From Methanomicrobiales archaeon (GTDB lineage: Archaea; Halobacteriota; Methanomicrobia; Methanomicrobiales; JACTUA01): a stretch of DNA of 64,000 nt. Made by a program: the position numbers and the translations under genes. Positions within the stretch are counted from its first letter, which is position 1. Every line of letters starts with the position of its first letter. Below the pieces are notes generated by a model that was not told the DNA's origin, made no database searches, and was given only the letters and a program-made list of their open reading frames with translations. Below are positions 54,692 through 61,866 of this stretch, piece by piece. The stretch lies in the NCBI GenBank assembly GCA_030019205.1, contig JASEFH010000010.1, forward strand, positions 1 to 64,000, given 5' to 3'.

Positions 54692-54719
54692 CATACAGGG
54701 ATGTATACGAGTGGGTGCC

Positions 54720-55142
54720 ATGGAACGGTTTACCATCTCTGAAGAGTCAACGGCGGACGATCTCATTCCGATTGCGATGAGCATCCATGCGATGCTCTAC
54801 CAGCTTCCCATTACCGCACGGTCCCGTGCGAATCCGGGCGTTCGAGTCGAGGAGGGGCGGGTGATCGACCGGAACTACAGCGGGCCGGTCCTCGAAGAGG
54901 TGCTCCAGGAGAACCGTACCATCAAGAAGACTCCCAGGAGCGGGACATACAGGGGGATTCCCGTCATCGTCGCACCCATCCAGGATACGGCGGGAACCGC
55001 GATCGGAGCCATCGGGGTGGTGGACATCAGCGGCATCTTCGATCTGGCAGGCCTCATGGAGCACCGCCAGGCAATCCTGCGTCAGATCGGCGGGGGCGAG
55101 ACACCATCGCCCGAACCCTCCGCCAGGAAGGGCGGACCATGA
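54720..55142 (+). CDS. DUF2111 family protein
   Basis: A 140-residue protein matching DUF2111, found in methanogens. Characteristic segments are IPIAMSIHAMLYQLPITARS, RVEEGRVIDRNYSGPVLEEV, YRGIPVIVAPIQDTAGTAIG and IGVVDISGIFDLAGLMEHRQ. The pattern is reminiscent of a small PAS/GAF-like sensory domain, but no ligand is known. It overlaps birA by four bases at its 3' end. Confidence 0.85.
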   Translation: MERFTISEESTADDLIPIAMSIHAMLYQLPITARSRANPGVRVEEGRVIDRNYSGPVLEEVLQENRTIKKTPRSGTYRGIPVIVAPIQDTAGTAIGAIGVVDISGIFDLAGLMEHRQAILRQIGGGETPSPEPSARKGGP

Positions 55143-56116
55143 ACGAATCTGCGTTTGCCGTGCTGGAGATCCTGGACAGGAGCGATCGCCCGATGCATGA
55201 CGACGAGATCGCCGCCGCACTCGGTGTTCCGCTCTCCCGCGTCCGTGCGGACATCCAGGAACTCCAGCGGCTCGGCTACGACTTCGCGCTGACGGAGAAG
55301 GGCTACCGGGTTCGGATGCGGAGCAGCCGCCTGCTCCCCTACGAAGTCCAGAAAGTGCTCACGACACAGTTCATCGGGCGCGAGATGCTCTACTGCGAGA
55401 GGACCGCATCCACGACCTGGATCGGAAAACAGGTGATGGCCGAGGAGGATCCGGCCCGCCATCACGGCATGGTCATCATCGCAGAGGAGCAGACGGGCGG
55501 CACCGGCAGGCTGGGCCGCGCCTGGATCTCTCCTCCGGGGGGGATCTGGATCACCATCGTCCTCCACCCGAAGATCCCGATCGATCGCGTCTTCATGGTG
55601 ACCATGGCGGGATCCGTCGCGGTCGCACGGGCGATCCGCAAGGAGTTCGATATCGGCGCCCTGATCAAATGGCCAAACGACATCTTGGTGGGGGATAAGA
55701 AGATCGCCGGCCTGCTCGTCGAGCTCGCGAGCGAGGGGGAGACCATCCACTACTGCCTCCTCGGGATCGGGATCGATGCGAACATCCCGATCATGGAGCT
55801 CACCCCCGGCCTCCGCCAGTCGGCCACTTCCCTTTCCGCGGAGCTCGGGCACGACGTGGACCGGCCGGCGTTCCTGGCGGCGGTCCTGAAAGAGTTCGAG
55901 CGGCACTACCTCCTCCTGGAGAGTGGCGAGTACGATACCATCATCCGCGAGTGGAAGTCACTCTCATCCACCCTCGAGCACCGGGTGCGGATCCGCACCC
56001 ACACCAGGCACTTCGAGGGGGAGGCGATCGATATCGACGATCACGGTGCGCTGATCGTGCGAAGGGACAACGGGGCTGTCGAGCGGGTGATTGCCGGAGA
56101 CTGCCACCTGCTCTGA
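55139..56116 (+). CDS. birA: BirA bifunctional biotin-protein ligase
   Basis: A 325-residue biotin-protein ligase with an N-terminal helix-turn-helix (residues 1-60; MHDDEIAAALGVPLSRVRAD). The ligase domain has EEQTGGTGRLGRAWISPPGG (biotinyl-AMP loop), LIKWPNDILVGDKKIAGLLVE and GIGIDANIP, with the SH3-like C-terminus TRHFEGEAIDIDDHGALIV. It attaches biotin to the PycB carrier lysine. The N-terminal domain suggests it also represses transcription, perhaps of this cluster. It overlaps the DUF2111 gene by four bases. Confidence 0.94.
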   Translation: MNESAFAVLEILDRSDRPMHDDEIAAALGVPLSRVRADIQELQRLGYDFALTEKGYRVRMRSSRLLPYEVQKVLTTQFIGREMLYCERTASTTWIGKQVMAEEDPARHHGMVIIAEEQTGGTGRLGRAWISPPGGIWITIVLHPKIPIDRVFMVTMAGSVAVARAIRKEFDIGALIKWPNDILVGDKKIAGLLVELASEGETIHYCLLGIGIDANIPIMELTPGLRQSATSLSAELGHDVDRPAFLAAVLKEFERHYLLLESGEYDTIIREWKSLSSTLEHRVRIRTHTRHFEGEAIDIDDHGALIVRRDNGAVERVIAGDCHLL

Positions 56117-56157: not shown

Positions 56158-56667
56158 ATGTACGGAAACCGTGAAAGAACCGCGGTACTCGCGCATACGG
56201 CCACGTTCATCGCGCTGATCACCGTGGGAAGCTGGATATCCATCCCCTTCATTCCGGTGCCGCTCACCCTGCAGACGCTCTTCGTGCTGCTCGCGGGGGC
56301 GATCATGAAACGGAACGGTGCCGTGCCCGTCCTGCTTTACGTCCTCCTCGGGGCCCTGAACCTGCCCGTCTTCCACAACGGCCTGGCCGGCATCGGGATC
56401 CTGCTGGGTCCGACGGGGGGCTACCTCGTCGGGTTCATCCCGGCGGCCTTCATCGTCGGGCTCGCGTACACGCGATCCGCCGCTGTCGGAAGAATCCTGG
56501 GGCTGCTTGCGGCCGACGCCACGCTCCTTCTCACCGGCATGGCATGGCTCGCGTTCTCGACGGGCATGCCGCCCGCGACGGCGTTCTTGGTAGGCGTACT
56601 GCCCTTCATCCCCGGAGATCTGCTGAAGATCGCTGCCGTCTACACCATTGCCAGACGATTCCCATGA
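56158..56667 (+). CDS. bioY: BioY biotin transporter S-component
   Basis: A 169-residue membrane protein with about five to six helices. It carries the BioY signature: WISIPFIPVPLTLQTLFVLL, then GALNLPVFHNGLAGIGILLG, followed by PTGGYLVGFIPAAFIVGL. The closing LPFIPGDLLKIAAVYTIA is also typical. BioY binds biotin in ECF-type transport. The stop overlaps the first ATPase gene (ATGA). ATG 56158 has no strong ribosome binding site. Confidence 0.95.
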   Translation: MYGNRERTAVLAHTATFIALITVGSWISIPFIPVPLTLQTLFVLLAGAIMKRNGAVPVLLYVLLGALNLPVFHNGLAGIGILLGPTGGYLVGFIPAAFIVGLAYTRSAAVGRILGLLAADATLLLTGMAWLAFSTGMPPATAFLVGVLPFIPGDLLKIAAVYTIARRFP

Positions 56668-57326
56668 TAGAGATCCGGAACCTTCGCCATCGATCCCTGG
56701 ATATCCCCTCTCTCGCGATCCCGCCGGGCAGAACGGCAGTGATAGGGCTGAACGGCAGTGGAAAGACCACGTTTCTCTCGCTCTGCGTCGGGATCGCTCT
56801 CCCGCAGGGCGGCTCGATCCTCCTGGATGGCCGTCCGCCCCGCGAGACGGACGTGGGATGGGTGGCGGAATTCCCGGATCGGAACATGCTCTTTGACAGG
56901 GTCTCCGACGAGATCGCATCGCCCCTGCGGTTCCGGTTCGTGCCTGCCCCGAGGATTCGGGAGGCGGTCGAGCGGATCGCGGCGGATGTCGGCATCTCGG
57001 GGCTGCTTGCCCGGAACCCCCGCAGCCTCTCCGGGGGCGAGAAGACTCTGGTCGCCCTCGCCACGGCGCTCGTCTCCCGCCCGGTAGTGCTCGTTCTGGA
57101 CGAGTTCGACTCCCATCTGGACGCCGAGACCCTGGGGGAAGCGGAGCGGGCGATCGGGCGGGCTCGGGTCCCCTACGTCCTCCAGTGCACCCAGAACCCG
57201 CACGTGGCGCGTTCGGCAGACCGCGTGCTCTATATGGAGGCGGGACGGGTCCGAGATCTGGGGGCGCTGGATCGGATGTTCCGCGCCGGAGACGCGGATC
57301 GGGCAGCGTGGGAGTTACCGGCATGA
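56664..57326 (+). CDS. ECF transporter ATPase (first, EcfA-like)
   Basis: A 220-residue ABC ATPase. Walker A is AVIGLNGSGKTTF, the signature is SLSGGEKTL and Walker B is VLVLDEFDSHLD, with the catalytic Glu retained. Two motifs differ from the norm: the Q-loop reads VAEFPDRN where FQNPD is usual, so Gln is replaced by Glu, and the switch reads QCTQNPH where VTHD is usual, so the His is replaced by Gln. It should still bind ATP. It overlaps bioY and the second ATPase by four bases each. Confidence 0.9.
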   Translation: MIEIRNLRHRSLDIPSLAIPPGRTAVIGLNGSGKTTFLSLCVGIALPQGGSILLDGRPPRETDVGWVAEFPDRNMLFDRVSDEIASPLRFRFVPAPRIREAVERIAADVGISGLLARNPRSLSGGEKTLVALATALVSRPVVLVLDEFDSHLDAETLGEAERAIGRARVPYVLQCTQNPHVARSADRVLYMEAGRVRDLGALDRMFRAGDADRAAWELPA

Positions 57327-57967
57327 GAATCACCCTCGACGAGGTCTCCCTGCGGAGGGGGGAATGGCAGCTCATGGCCAGCGGCCGCTTCGACCTGGGC
57401 ATCCACCAGGTCAGCGGGCGGGTGGGGAGCGGCAAGTCCACGCTCGCCCTCTTGATGGGCGGCCTGCTGGAACCCGAGGAGGGATGCATCCGAATGGAGG
57501 GCATCCGGCGGAGGATGCTCTCGTTCCAGTTCCCCGAGTACCACGTCACCGAGAGGAGCGTTGCGGGCGAGATCGCCTCCTGGGGCTGCGACCCGGACAC
57601 CGTGATCGCCGAAGCCGGGCTCGGGGGAAGGGGGGACGAGGATCCCCTCCTCCTCAGCCGCGGGGAACTCAAACGGCTGCACCTGGCCTGCATCCTCCGG
57701 TGCGACTGCGACCTCCTCCTGCTGGACGATCCCTTCTGCTCCCTGGACTGGCGGGGCAGACGTCAGGTCTGGGACTGGATCGAGCGGCGGCGGGGGATTG
57801 TCGTCGTATTCACGAACGAGCGGCGTGTGCTCCCCGGGGTGCGCTGGCGGTGGGAGATACGGGAGGGGCTGCTCCGATCCATGGACGGGAGCCACCCTCC
57901 CGCCGTGGATCCGCCGCCCTTCGCGGGGGAGAGGGGGCGGGAGGAACGATGCGGGATCCCCGGCTGA
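57323..57967 (+). CDS. ECF transporter ATPase (second, divergent)
   Basis: A 214-residue divergent ABC ATPase. Walker A is GRVGSGKST and the Q-loop Gln is retained (LSFQFPEYHVT). The signature is LLLSRGELKR rather than LSGGQ. Walker B reads LLLLDDPFCSLD, so the catalytic Glu is Asp, and the switch region reads VVVFTNERR with Asn where His is usual. It may be a weakly hydrolysing or regulatory partner of the first ATPase. A proline/arginine-rich C-terminal tail runs into G-rich DNA. The end overlaps ecfT by 19 bases. Confidence 0.85.
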   Translation: MRITLDEVSLRRGEWQLMASGRFDLGIHQVSGRVGSGKSTLALLMGGLLEPEEGCIRMEGIRRRMLSFQFPEYHVTERSVAGEIASWGCDPDTVIAEAGLGGRGDEDPLLLSRGELKRLHLACILRCDCDLLLLDDPFCSLDWRGRRQVWDWIERRRGIVVVFTNERRVLPGVRWRWEIREGLLRSMDGSHPPAVDPPPFAGERGREERCGIPG

Positions 57968-58611
57968 GGCTGCTCGCCACGGTTGCCCTCTCCATCGCGG
58001 CCTATTGCAGCCTTGCGGGAGCGGCGGCCGCAGGTGTCTGGTGGCTCCTCTTCAGCGGGAGGACGCGATCCATCCCCCACCCCCGGGCGCTTCTTTCGTT
58101 TATCGCCCTTCTCGCTGTCTTCTCTGCCGCCATCCATATCGGCGGCGGGGACGGTATCTCTTACCTGGTGCGGTTTTCGGTCATCGCCCTGATCGCCGCC
58201 TGGACGTTCGCCGACCGCCAGCCGGGCGAGCTCCTGGATCTCTCCACCTGGTGTCTGGGGGAGCGTATCGGATTCGAGATCGGGCTCGTGGCTGAGATGA
58301 GCATGCGCTCGCTCGAGGTGATCGCGGAAGATTTCGAGCGGATCCGCCAGGCCCAGGGGATCAAGGGGGTGCCGTGGGGAGTGCGGAGTCTCGTGCCGGC
58401 CGTCTCGGCGCTGATCCACGCCGGGCTGGTGCGGGCGGAGGATCAGGCGGATCTCCTGGCGGTGCGGGGCTACCGGAGGGGCGGGACCTCCTGCCCCCGC
58501 TTCTCCCGCGAGCCGATGGACGTTGCGGCAGCTGCATCCGCAATTCTGGTTGGATTGGCGCTTTTTGTGCCAGCTGGTGATATTTTTATACTTTTACAAA
58601 GAAGTTTTTAG
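57949..58611 (+). CDS. ECF transporter T-component
   Basis: A 220-residue membrane protein, the energy-coupling T-component. It has about five hydrophobic helices and a cytoplasmic coupling region with the characteristic EVIAEDFERIRQAQGIKG motif (the A-R-G-type coupling helix) and a second, LLAVRGYRRGGT. It joins the two ATPases to BioY. The ATG at 57949 has GGGAGGA six bases upstream. The last 30 bases contain an AT-rich promoter for pycB. Confidence 0.85.
   Translation: MRDPRLRLLATVALSIAAYCSLAGAAAAGVWWLLFSGRTRSIPHPRALLSFIALLAVFSAAIHIGGGDGISYLVRFSVIALIAAWTFADRQPGELLDLSTWCLGERIGFEIGLVAEMSMRSLEVIAEDFERIRQAQGIKGVPWGVRSLVPAVSALIHAGLVRAEDQADLLAVRGYRRGGTSCPRFSREPMDVAAAASAILVGLALFVPAGDIFILLQRSF
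58578..58600 (+). promoter_or_regulatory. internal promoter for pycB-pycA
   Basis: GATATTTTTATACTTTTAC (58578-58596) lies inside the 3' end of ecfT, an AT-rich island in a GC-rich operon. It is about 55-70 bases before the pycB ATG and probably lets pycBA be transcribed without the biotin import genes. Confidence 0.5.
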
Positions 58612-58651: not shown

Positions 58652-60391
58652 ATGACTGCCAGCAGTTCTTCCCGAGTGCGCATCACCGACACCACGCTGC
58701 GGGATGCGCATCAATCGCTCATCGCCACCCGGTTGAGGACGGAAGATCTCCTTCCCCTGGCGCGAACCCTGGACGATGTGGGGTTCTTCTCCGTCGAGGC
58801 CTGGGGTGGAGCGACCTTCGACTCCGCGATCCGGTTCCTGAACGACGATCCCTGGGAGCGGCTGCGTAGCCTGAAGGAGGAGCTGAAGAAGACGCCCATC
58901 CAGATGCTCCTCCGCGGGCAGAACCTCGTCGGTTACCGCCATTATCCCGACGACGTGGTGGAGCGGTTCGTCGACGCCGCCTGCCAGAACGGCGTGGATA
59001 TCTTCCGGATCTTCGACGCCCTGAACGACATCCGCAACATGCGGAAGGCGATGGAGGAGGTGAAGGCAAGAGGCGCCCACCTCCAGGGAGCCATCTGCTA
59101 CACGATCAGCCCGGTGCATACCATCCCTGCCTTCATCGAGATGGCCCGGGAGCTCTACAGCCTGGAGTGCGACTCGATCTGCATCAAGGATATGGCCGGG
59201 CTGATTATGCCCGAGGCGGCGCGGGAGCTGATCTGCGGCATAAAAGACGAGATGGACATCCTGGTGGATCTCCACTCCCACTCGACAAGCGGCGTCGCCC
59301 CGATGAGTTACCAGGCGGCAATCGATGCCGGCGCGGATATCCTGGACACTGCCATGTCGCCGTTCGCTCTCGGGACTTCGCAGCCTCCCACCGAGAGCAC
59401 GGTCGCCGCTCTCGCCGGCACGGCGAGGGACACGGGCATCGATCTCGTTGCCCTCCGAAAGGTGCGCAATCAGTGCCTGCGTATCCGCGAGAAGTACGCC
59501 GGCCTGATCAGCCCCATCTCCGAGCGGGTGGACAGCGATGTGCTGATCTACCAGCTGCCGGGCGGGATGATCTCCAACCTCTACTCGCAGCTCAAGGAGC
59601 AGGACGCCCTGAACCGACTGGAGGACGTCTTTGCCGAGATCCCGCGGGTGCGGGAGGATCTCGGCTACCCCCCGCTCGTTACCCCGACGAGCCAGATCGT
59701 GGGCACCCAGGCGGTCATCAACGTGCTCGTGGGCGGCGAACGCTATCAGAACGTGACGAACGAGGTGAAGGACTACGTGCGGGGGCTCTACGGGAAACCG
59801 CCGGCGCCCATCCGCGACGAGATTCGCGAACGGATCATCGGCAGCGACCCTCCCATCACGGTGCGGCCGGCGGATCTGCTCGAACCGATGTATGAGAAGA
59901 TGAAGCGGGATGCGGTAAAAGCGGGGCTTGTCAAGAAGGAGGAGGATATCCTCACCTACATCCTCTACCCGGCCATCGCCCCCGCGTTCCTGCGGGGCGA
60001 GAGGAAAGCGGAAGTCCTGCCGGTGAAGGAGGCGGAGAGCAAGCCGCCCGTGGATCTCCCGAGCAGCATGGAGGTGGAGGTCGACGGCGAGATCTTCTCC
60101 GTGCGGATCCTCACTGTGGAGGGTTCCGCGGTCACACCGACGCCAAAGCCTCACGAGAAGATCCCCCGCGGCGAGATGGAAGGGGGCGTGAAGAGCAACA
60201 TGCAGGGAATGGTGCTCGAGGTGGTGGCTGCGACCGGCACCATGGTCAGGAAGGGGGATGTCCTGATCGTCCTCGAGGCGATGAAGATGGAGAACCCGAT
60301 CCACAGCCCGAGGGACGGCAGGGTCGGGGAGATATTCGTGAACCAGGGGGATGTGGTGCAGCCCGGCGACGTGCTGCTGGTGATCGAATGA
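58652..60391 (+). CDS. pycB: pyruvate carboxylase subunit B (carboxyltransferase and biotin carrier)
   Basis: A 579-residue PycB. The TIM-barrel carboxyltransferase starts VRITDTTLRDAHQSLIATRL and contains AWGGATFDSAIRFLNDDPWE, FRIFDALNDIRNM and LVDLHSHSTSGVAPMSYQAA. The C-terminal biotin carrier has VLEAMKMENPIHSP, with the biotinylated lysine at residue 545. The enzyme makes oxaloacetate from pyruvate and bicarbonate for the incomplete citric acid cycle of methanogens. GGAG precedes the ATG by eight bases. The upstream AT-rich promoter is inside ecfT. Confidence 0.96.
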   Translation: MTASSSSRVRITDTTLRDAHQSLIATRLRTEDLLPLARTLDDVGFFSVEAWGGATFDSAIRFLNDDPWERLRSLKEELKKTPIQMLLRGQNLVGYRHYPDDVVERFVDAACQNGVDIFRIFDALNDIRNMRKAMEEVKARGAHLQGAICYTISPVHTIPAFIEMARELYSLECDSICIKDMAGLIMPEAARELICGIKDEMDILVDLHSHSTSGVAPMSYQAAIDAGADILDTAMSPFALGTSQPPTESTVAALAGTARDTGIDLVALRKVRNQCLRIREKYAGLISPISERVDSDVLIYQLPGGMISNLYSQLKEQDALNRLEDVFAEIPRVREDLGYPPLVTPTSQIVGTQAVINVLVGGERYQNVTNEVKDYVRGLYGKPPAPIRDEIRERIIGSDPPITVRPADLLEPMYEKMKRDAVKAGLVKKEEDILTYILYPAIAPAFLRGERKAEVLPVKEAESKPPVDLPSSMEVEVDGEIFSVRILTVEGSAVTPTPKPHEKIPRGEMEGGVKSNMQGMVLEVVAATGTMVRKGDVLIVLEAMKMENPIHSPRDGRVGEIFVNQGDVVQPGDVLLVIE

Positions 60392-61866
60392 CGCACTTCG
60401 AGAAGATCCTGATCGCCAACCGCGGGGAGATCGCCATCCGGGTGATGCGGGCCTGCCGGGAGCTCGGGATCGAGACGGTCGCCATCTACTCCACGCCGGA
60501 CAAGAACGCGCTGCACGTGAAATACGCCGACGAGGCCTTCCACGTCGGGGACGCCCATCCCTCCAAAAGTTACCTGAACAAGGAGCGGATCATCGATATC
60601 GCTCATAAAGCCGGTGCGGAGGCTATCCACCCCGGTTACGGGTTCCTGGCCGAGAACAGCGCTTTCGCGAAACTCTGCTGCGACGAGGGGCTCGTCTTCA
60701 TCGGCCCCTCCTGGAGGGCGATCCAGGCGCTGGGATCCAAGGTGGGCGCCCGCAGCCTGATGCGGTCTTCCGGCGTGCCGGTGCTCCCCGGTACGCCGGA
60801 CGGTGTCACGGACATCGACGAGGCGAAGCAGGTGGCCGCCGAGATCGGCTACCCCGTGATCTGCAAGGCGAGCGCCGGGGGCGGCGGTATCGGGATGCAG
60901 ATCGTCCATGAGGAGTCAGCGCTCGAGGAGGCGATCGCCGCCGGGATGCGGATCGCGGAGTCCGCCTTCGGAGACCCGACCATCTTCATCGAGAAGTACC
61001 TGACGAAACCGCGCCACATCGAGTTCCAGGTGCTCGGCGACAACTATGGACACGCGATCCACCTCTTCGACCGCGAGTGCTCCATCCAGCGGCGCCACCA
61101 GAAGCTGATCGAGGAGGCGCCTTCTCCCATCATGACGGCGGACCTGCGGGAGAGGATGGCGGAGTCGGCCCTCACGGCGGTCCGTGCGTCGAGGTACTCC
61201 AACGCGGGTTCGATCGAGTTCCTCTACGCGGACGGCGACTACTACTTCATGGAGGTCAACGCCCGCCTGCAGGTGGAACACACGATCACGGAGTTCATCA
61301 CCGGCGTGGATCTGGTGAAGCAGCAGATCGCGATCGCGGCCGGAGAACCGCTCCTCCTCGACCAGGAGGACGTGACCGCCACCGGGCACGCGATCGAGTG
61401 CCGGATCAATGCGGAGGATCCCATGAACAACTTCGCCGCGGATCCAGGCAAGATCGTCCGCTACCGCTCCCCGGGAGGGCCAGGCATTCGCGTTGACAGC
61501 GGGATTCATGTGGGTTACACCATCCCGCCTTACTACGACTCCATGATCTCGAAGCTCTGCGCCTGGGGCAGCAGCCGCATGGAGGCGATCCAGAGGATGC
61601 GGCGGGCGATCTACGAGTACGTGATCATCGGGGTGAAGACCACGCTCCCGCTCCACCACGCCGTGATGCACAACAGGCGCTTCACGGAGGGGGATACCCA
61701 CACCCACTTCCTGCAGGAGGAGCGGATTATCGAGAACCTGCACCGCTACCTGCGCGAGGAGGAGACCCGCATGCAGACGCTCGCCGCATCCCTTCGCCAG
61801 GGCAAGGAGATCGCGGCGATCTCCGTTGCGGTCAACGTCTACATCAACCAGCAGAAGAAGCGGTAG
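60388..61866 (+). CDS. pycA: pyruvate carboxylase subunit A (biotin carboxylase)
   Basis: A 492-residue ATP-grasp biotin carboxylase. It opens FEKILIANRGEIAIRVMRAC, with the ATP-binding loop ICKASAGGGGIGMQIV and FIEKYLTKPRHIEFQVLGDN. FMEVNARLQVEHTITEFITG and IECRINAEDPMNNF follow. It carboxylates the biotin on PycB using ATP and bicarbonate. The start overlaps the pycB stop by four bases. The last gene of the block ends 60 bases before tRNA-Met. Confidence 0.97.
   Translation: MTHFEKILIANRGEIAIRVMRACRELGIETVAIYSTPDKNALHVKYADEAFHVGDAHPSKSYLNKERIIDIAHKAGAEAIHPGYGFLAENSAFAKLCCDEGLVFIGPSWRAIQALGSKVGARSLMRSSGVPVLPGTPDGVTDIDEAKQVAAEIGYPVICKASAGGGGIGMQIVHEESALEEAIAAGMRIAESAFGDPTIFIEKYLTKPRHIEFQVLGDNYGHAIHLFDRECSIQRRHQKLIEEAPSPIMTADLRERMAESALTAVRASRYSNAGSIEFLYADGDYYFMEVNARLQVEHTITEFITGVDLVKQQIAIAAGEPLLLDQEDVTATGHAIECRINAEDPMNNFAADPGKIVRYRSPGGPGIRVDSGIHVGYTIPPYYDSMISKLCAWGSSRMEAIQRMRRAIYEYVIIGVKTTLPLHHAVMHNRRFTEGDTHTHFLQEERIIENLHRYLREEETRMQTLAASLRQGKEIAAISVAVNVYINQQKKR

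Follow-up and report, generated by a model that had tools for sequence, protein, structure and literature searches.

Can a biotin importer of the ECF type still work when neither of its two ATPases carries the full set of catalytic motif residues? The question is raised by a biotin gene cluster of a Methanomicrobiales archaeon, found in a stretch of 64,000 nucleotides (contig JASEFH010000010.1, positions 1 to 64,000), here called the window. A sequence-only reading of this DNA had listed motif residues missing from both ATPases, had described the losses as complementary and had proposed either an asymmetric module with a single productive ATP site or a changed coupling mechanism. An ATP site is built from the Walker A and B motifs, the Q-loop and the switch of one ATPase together with the signature of its partner (PMC7756269, excerpt). 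We defined site 1 as the motifs of the first ATPase, A1, with the signature of the second, A2, and site 2 as the A2 motifs with the A1 signature; motif losses read subunit by subunit are misleading, and the view by composite site separates the changes that are old and shared from those private to one genome.

The Biotin Operon and Its Two ATPases

The features of the cluster are collected in Table 1. BioY is the sole match of its kind in the window genome, and the reading frames of A1 and A2 are both intact. The top NCBIfam model was TIGR04520 (ECF_ATPase_1) for A1, with 95.5 bits, and TIGR04521 (ECF_ATPase_2) for A2, with 57.5 bits, both under the equivalog cut-offs of 315 and 330, respectively. 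By structural comparison of the AlphaFold models (pLDDT 95.5 for A1 and 94.6 for A2), the closest solved fold to A1 was 8bms_A, an EcfA (Z 28.0, rmsd 1.6, 209 aligned), and that of A2 was 4zir_A (Z 21.2, rmsd 2.6, 189 aligned), tied with other ABC ATPases, with 8bms_B at Z 20.9. The best models and the fold lists thus agree on ATPases of the EcfA/CbiO type, with the tie noted for A2. The gene order BioY-A1-A2-T on one strand was found in 193 of the 199 loci of the order that bear BioY, the remaining 6 having no scored A1 or no scored T; the 8 loci without BioY have less than 600 bases upstream of A2. As expected for a group I ECF system, dedicated A and T genes accompany that of the S component, which belongs to the BioY family. 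We take the locus for a group I ECF system dedicated to biotin import, BioY-EcfA1-EcfA2-EcfT; that it works with two non-equivalent ATP sites seems to us an even call.

Table 1. Genes and motif residues of the biotin cluster in the window, and genes of the second ECF module.
Feature	Position	Strand	Basis
BirA-type biotin protein ligase with N-terminal HTH, first gene of the cluster	55139..56116	+	TIGR00121 182.9 bits, above cut-off; Pfam BPL_LplA_LipB, BPL_C
BioY, biotin-binding S component	56158..56667	+	Pfam PF02632 133 bits
A1, first ECF ATPase (EcfA1-like), 220 aa	56664..57326	+	ABC_tran
A1 E69, position of the Q-loop Gln	56868..56870	+	orthologue alignment
A1 E147, Walker B catalytic Glu, kept	57102..57104	+	orthologue alignment
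A1 Q177, position of the switch His	57192..57194	+	orthologue alignment
A2, second ECF ATPase (EcfA2-like), short, 214 aa	57323..57967	+	ABC_tran
A2 R113 in signature LSRGE, facing the A1 ATP site	57659..57661	+	orthologue alignment
A2 D136 replacing the Walker B catalytic Glu, private to the window genome	57728..57730	+	orthologue alignment
A2 N165 replacing the switch His, private to the window genome	57815..57817	+	orthologue alignment
EcfT, membrane coupling subunit, divergent	57949..58611	+	Pfam CbiQ 24.5 bits, slightly under cut-off 25
EcfT K139 in the first coupling motif, Arg in other ECF T subunits	58363..58365	+	orthologue alignment
Pyruvate carboxylase subunit with biotin attachment domain, consumes biotin	58652..60391	+	PYC_OADA, Biotin_lipoyl
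Pyruvate carboxylase, biotin carboxylase subunit	60388..61866	+	Biotin_carb_N, CPSase_L_D2, Biotin_carb_C
Second ECF module, tandem/fused EcfA	G000 C15 32384-33820 (L274 3885-5321)		
Second module, S gene	L274 3336-3881		weak TrpP match
Second module, T gene	L274 5328-6107		CbiQ

A gene for a DUF2111 protein (54711-55142) overlaps the start of the BirA gene and, because of this overlap, possibly belongs to the biotin cluster.

To ask how far the cell depends on this operon, models of bioA, bioB and bioD were considered, each of which passes its cut-off in 6 or 7 of 14 control genomes; none of the three was found over the cut-off in the window genome, where the bioA model gave sub-cut-off matches to other aminotransferase-like genes. 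Since a biotin-dependent pyruvate carboxylase adjoins the operon, bioA, bioB and bioD are missing at these cut-offs and a single BioY is present, uptake must work somehow.

The motifs pointed out in the sequence-only reading are all present in the translations. A1 carries Walker A GLNGSGKTT, Q-loop VAEFPD, signature LSGGE, Walker B LVLDE and switch CTQN, that is, Glu for the Q-loop Gln (E69) and Gln for the switch His (Q177), with the Walker B Glu and LSGGE retained; A2 carries GRVGSGKST, SFQFPE with the Q-loop Gln (Q69) kept, LSRGE, LLLLDD with Asp as the last residue of Walker B, and FTNE with Asn at the switch. LSRGE had been counted among the losses: the motif is real, but merely its third residue differs, and Lys or Arg at that position is also known in functional ABC ATPases. 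A displacement of the His or Gln to a neighbouring position was excluded by a profile-profile comparison of A1 with A2 and by the orthologue alignment (201 A1, 207 A2), in which E69 and Q177 stand on the columns of the Q-loop and the switch, and D136 and N165 on columns with Glu in 204 of 206 and His in 204 of 205 sequences with a residue there. The AlphaFold model of A2 agrees with this placement: D136 comes immediately after the Walker B strand (131-135) and N165 immediately after the strand preceding the switch (159-164). The codons of these two residues are each one base away from a Glu and a His codon, respectively.

Distribution of the Changes across the Order

A2 was searched in 232 genomes of the order and matched at 1e-15 in 213. 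Left out of these were G016, whose sole match resembles a tandem ATPase in its score and in the length of its frame, G019, G025, G031, G033 and the split G107, so that 207 operons were aligned, comprising 201 A1, 207 A2 and 202 T sequences; 6 of the 207 loci lacked an A1 over 100 bits, 5 lacked a T, and the Q-loop falls in a gap in 2 A1 and 2 A2 rows.

Of the 201 A1 sequences, 2 have the gap at the Q-loop position and none of the other 199 has Gln there; these have Glu in 190, Ala in 6, and Ser, Asp and Pro in one each. The A1 switch is more variable (Gln 155, His 41, other residues 5), and its state changed at least 11 times on the tree. Walker A, LSGGE and the catalytic Glu of A1 are retained order-wide, the latter in 199 sequences with Asp in the other 2, and this retention indicates that site 1 is under selection. 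Among the 207 A2 sequences, the Q-loop has Gln in 198 (Pro 5, Ala 1, His 1, gap 2), the third residue of the signature is Arg in 198 (Ala 4, Gln 2, Gly 2, Leu 1), Walker B ends in Glu in 204 (Gly in one, G145, Asp in the window genome, gap in one) and the switch is His in 204 (Asn in the window genome, gap in 2). D136 and N165 therefore occur once each among the orthologues, both in the window genome, in a set that contains no genus-mate of it.

The order-wide changes, namely those of the A1 Q-loop, the A1 switch and the A2 signature, all fall in site 1, and the two private ones, Glu to Asp and His to Asn in A2, both fall in site 2, which is canonical in nearly all relatives. In the window genome, site 1 keeps the Walker B Glu and is without Gln and His, and site 2 keeps Gln and LSGGE and is without Glu and His; judged by these motifs, the relatives would have one canonical site and the window genome none. 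The idea that the losses of the two ATPases complement each other does not survive a count by composite site, since the shared changes lie all in one and the private ones in the other. The proposed asymmetry was borne out for the order, as far as can be predicted from motifs; in the window genome no canonical site is left. The alignment rejected the possibility that this genome alone has the A1 changes: Glu and Gln of A1 and Arg of A2 are shared with the relatives, and it is for the A2 Glu and His alone that the relatives carry the usual residues.

A changed Gln, Glu or His of site 2 was found in 9 of the 207 loci, and the minimum number of such changes on the tree is 6. Besides the window genome, they are G001 and G007-G009 of the same family, with Pro for Gln, and G131, G145, G154 and G214 elsewhere. 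Five of the ten operons of the family of the window genome are thus affected, versus 4 of the 197 others (Fisher p about 1e-5, a value that ignores kinship, as three of the five belong to one genus). In G145 (L185), the Walker B Glu of A2 is replaced by Gly (LVLDGPF) and the switch His is kept, so that site 2 has lost its catalytic Glu a second time, separately.

We also considered a strict covariation between the acidic Q-loop of A1 and the signature Arg of A2, which is not a rule in the joint table: 5 loci combine Q-loop Ala with LSRGE, 4 combine Glu with LSAGE, and 2 combine Glu with LSGGE. The two features would be only loosely associated, and the association is repeated in the second ECF module described below.

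One operon of a single-contig genome (G189, L065, C1 99698-103276) is without A1, A2 coming directly after a BioY that lacks its usual end, with the start of EcfT cut; no match of A1 grade was found elsewhere in that genome (best 1e-39). This is either a natural deletion or an assembly fault.

Origin and Pace of the Changes

The A2 profile was then searched against 391 sampled genomes of the phylum. Proteins of the order itself all matched at 1e-64 or better, and no other order gave a match better than 9e-31. Outside the order, 26 loci were taken (6 + 20), with BioY in 21. These 21 operons come from other families of the phylum, and Gln, Glu and His are present in A1 and A2 of every one of them; their A1 signature is LSGG, and that of A2 is LSGG in 18 and LNRGT, LSNGH or LSNGQ in the others. 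The 5 remaining loci (L289, L291, L297, L298 and L300) have fused ATPases, with no BioY found; the signature of their second domain is LSKGQ or FSKGQ, and Gln, Glu and His are kept.

A tree built on A1, A2 and T of 196 members of the order and 5 outside loci placed the order in one clade with a long stem. As all 21 outgroup operons keep these three residues in both ATPases, the asymmetry is derived in the order, and the Gln of the outgroups together with the single clade makes the loss of the A1 Gln common to the whole order.

To evaluate whether the operon of the window genome is simply decaying, departures from columns conserved at 95% or more were counted. There were none among the 29 columns of A1 and the 16 of T, and 2 among the 25 of A2, which are exactly E136 and H165. 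Two or more such departures were found in 13 of the 207 A2, and the count of 2 is not extreme by itself. The root-to-tip distance of the window genome is the third shortest of 196. A general decay of the operon is rejected by the column count and by this ranking.

The Coupling Subunit

EcfT is reached by the CbiQ model just below its cut-off (Table 1), and of the two X-Arg-X motifs expected in a CbiQ/EcfT protein the first has Lys and the second Arg. The Lys of the first motif is present in all 200 members of the order with a residue at this position, versus Arg in all 25 outside T subunits; the Arg of the second motif is kept in 199 of 201 with a residue. In known ECF transporters the replacement of either coupling Arg impairs function (PMC3246461, excerpt), and in Lactobacillus delbrueckii EcfA is the docking partner of one long coupling helix and EcfA' that of the next (PMC10368641, excerpt). 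Since A1 matches best the EcfA1 model and A2 the EcfA2 model, the altered coupling motif would face the altered ATPase.

Possible Working of the Motor

The data suggest a mechanism to which we give roughly even weight, in which site 2 hydrolyses ATP, site 1 mostly holds it and the motor of the window genome is slowed. Site 1 would have been altered early in the order; it probably binds ATP and turns it over slowly or seldom, so that its main part would be to keep the dimer together and transmit the stroke to EcfT, and site 2 would be the likely hydrolysis site. In the window genome, site 2 has taken the mildest replacements, Asp for Glu and Asn for His, and its motor may be slower but still working, enough for a vitamin needed in traces. 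The hydrolysing site, the slow rate and the continued uptake are all three inferred. A slow, working motor is the most likely outcome, given the conservative nature of both replacements and the need of this genome for biotin. Sites with Asp for Glu seem to hydrolyse still, but more slowly than the transport cycle, and in MRP1 (ABCC1) mutants of the switch His in the canonical site lost transport except those with Gln and Asn (PMC7756269, excerpt); MRP1 is an exporter, and its tolerance of Asn may not carry over to an ECF importer.

As in degenerate-site transporters, the deviations lie in one composite site and are conserved among orthologues, but the loss of the Walker B Glu that goes with a degenerate site was not found here. 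For this reason, we say that the module would work like a degenerate-site transporter and do not call it a typical member, and site 1, which keeps its catalytic Glu unlike the usual degenerate sites of exporters, may still hydrolyse. The switch His that persists in 41 of 201 A1 also speaks against a degenerate site 1. Moreover, the ECF module of L. delbrueckii has both catalytic Glu and depends on each of them: changing Glu to Gln in one ATPase, whichever of the two, abolished ATPase activity and transport (PMC10368641, excerpt), which argues that ECF motors need both sites. These points, with the catalytic Glu kept in 204 of 206 A2 as well as in A1 and with the Gln and Asn that sustain transport at the MRP1 switch, would favour a module in which both sites hydrolyse throughout the order, the replacements being tolerated and the two halves functionally near-symmetric. 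We regard this as a minority view, still to be taken seriously: the Q-loop Gln is found in none of the 199 A1 with a residue there versus 21 of 21 outgroups, the changes accumulate in one site and not in both, and all human ABC degenerate sites have a changed signature, as A2 does (PMC7756269, excerpt).

That the motor of the window genome is dead or dying, and BioY alone imports the biotin, is kept in play by BioY of Rhodobacter capsulatus, which shows uptake activity without A and T (PMC3246461, excerpt). The only canonical site of the module has lost both key residues, the G189 operon does entirely without A1, and the excess of site 2 changes in the family, with the caveat on kinship given above, goes in the same direction; on the other hand, the frames are all open, no other conserved position is lost, evolution is slow, and decay would be expected in Walker A, the signatures and T too. 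We consider a dead motor unlikely. It is harder still to believe that site 1 has taken over hydrolysis in this genome, A1 E147 being the only catalytic Glu left in the module beside the Asp of A2, because Gln, His and LSGGE have not returned to site 1 and A1 is unchanged with respect to its relatives at every conserved column. Least credible of all is that D136 and N165 are sequencing or assembly errors in an ordinary gene of the order: each codon is indeed a single base from the usual one and the changes are seen in one genome only, but among 214 codons two independent errors would have had to strike just the two catalytic ones, in a genome with 99.59% completeness and 0.38% contamination.

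Going beyond the slowed motor that we prefer, it is conceivable, though improbable, that in the ECF importers of the order an acid (Glu or Asp) in the Q-loop of the first ATPase, opposite the Arg of the partner signature, makes site 1 an ATP-holding clamp, the pairing being present in two separate ECF modules. In the biotin module the Lys of EcfT, expected to dock on this half, would belong to the change, and the importer of the window genome, left without any canonical catalytic site, would be driven by ATP binding and very slow hydrolysis.

Relation to Known Systems and a Second ECF Module

The module resembles BioMNY of R. capsulatus, a group I ECF system with a BioY S component, dedicated A and T and a role in biotin supply. 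BioM, however, forms a homodimer, whereas in the module of the window the two ATPases differ from each other and show changes in Q-loop, switch and signature, and the first coupling motif of T has Lys in place of Arg. With the EcfA-EcfA' modules (L. delbrueckii ECF-FolT2, 8bms; EcfAA', 4zir) it shares heterodimeric ATPases of the same fold; unlike L. delbrueckii, its site 1 is without Gln and His, and site 2 of the window genome without Glu and His. As in MRP1, TAP, BmrCD and Pdr5, the changes of one composite site include the partner signature and are conserved in orthologues. Those proteins are exporters, most of them without the Walker B Glu at the degenerate site, whereas here the system is an importer that retains the Glu, and it is the Q-loop Gln that is invariably lost.

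Degenerate ATP sites have so far been described mainly for exporters. Among the matches listed from the open-access literature, none dealt with degenerate sites in ECF transporters, although the print literature may differ; the paper bearing both ECF and degenerate-site terms among those matches concerns BmrCD (PMC7828314, excerpt), and the matches listed for BioY in methanogens, as excerpts, contained nothing on these ATPases. What appears to be new, on the evidence of the motifs, is an ECF importer with a putatively altered ATP site throughout an order, together with one genome that has lost Glu and His of site 2 as well. Such an importer with its natural variant would probe how many hydrolysis events are needed per cycle, and the same comparison, for which canonical sister operons exist, would ask whether ATP binding alone expels the S component.

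A search of viral contigs gave no match, and a scan of genome contigs with one protein returned two unrelated ABC genes. A second ECF module with a tandem, fused EcfA was found in the window genome (Table 1), and a similar alteration of the same composite site is predicted in it, although it is distant from the biotin module. In the 30 best-scoring loci, the own copy included, of the 118 genomes with a match among 135 searched, the Q-loop has Asp in domain 1 in 30 of 30 and the signature of domain 2 is LSRGE in 30 of 30. The switch His is kept in both domains, that of domain 1 lying in xEHK in 29 of 30 and in LLTDHG in the own copy. The second module differs from the biotin module in its fused ATPases, its TrpP-like S component, and in keeping both the switch His and the Arg of the first T motif.
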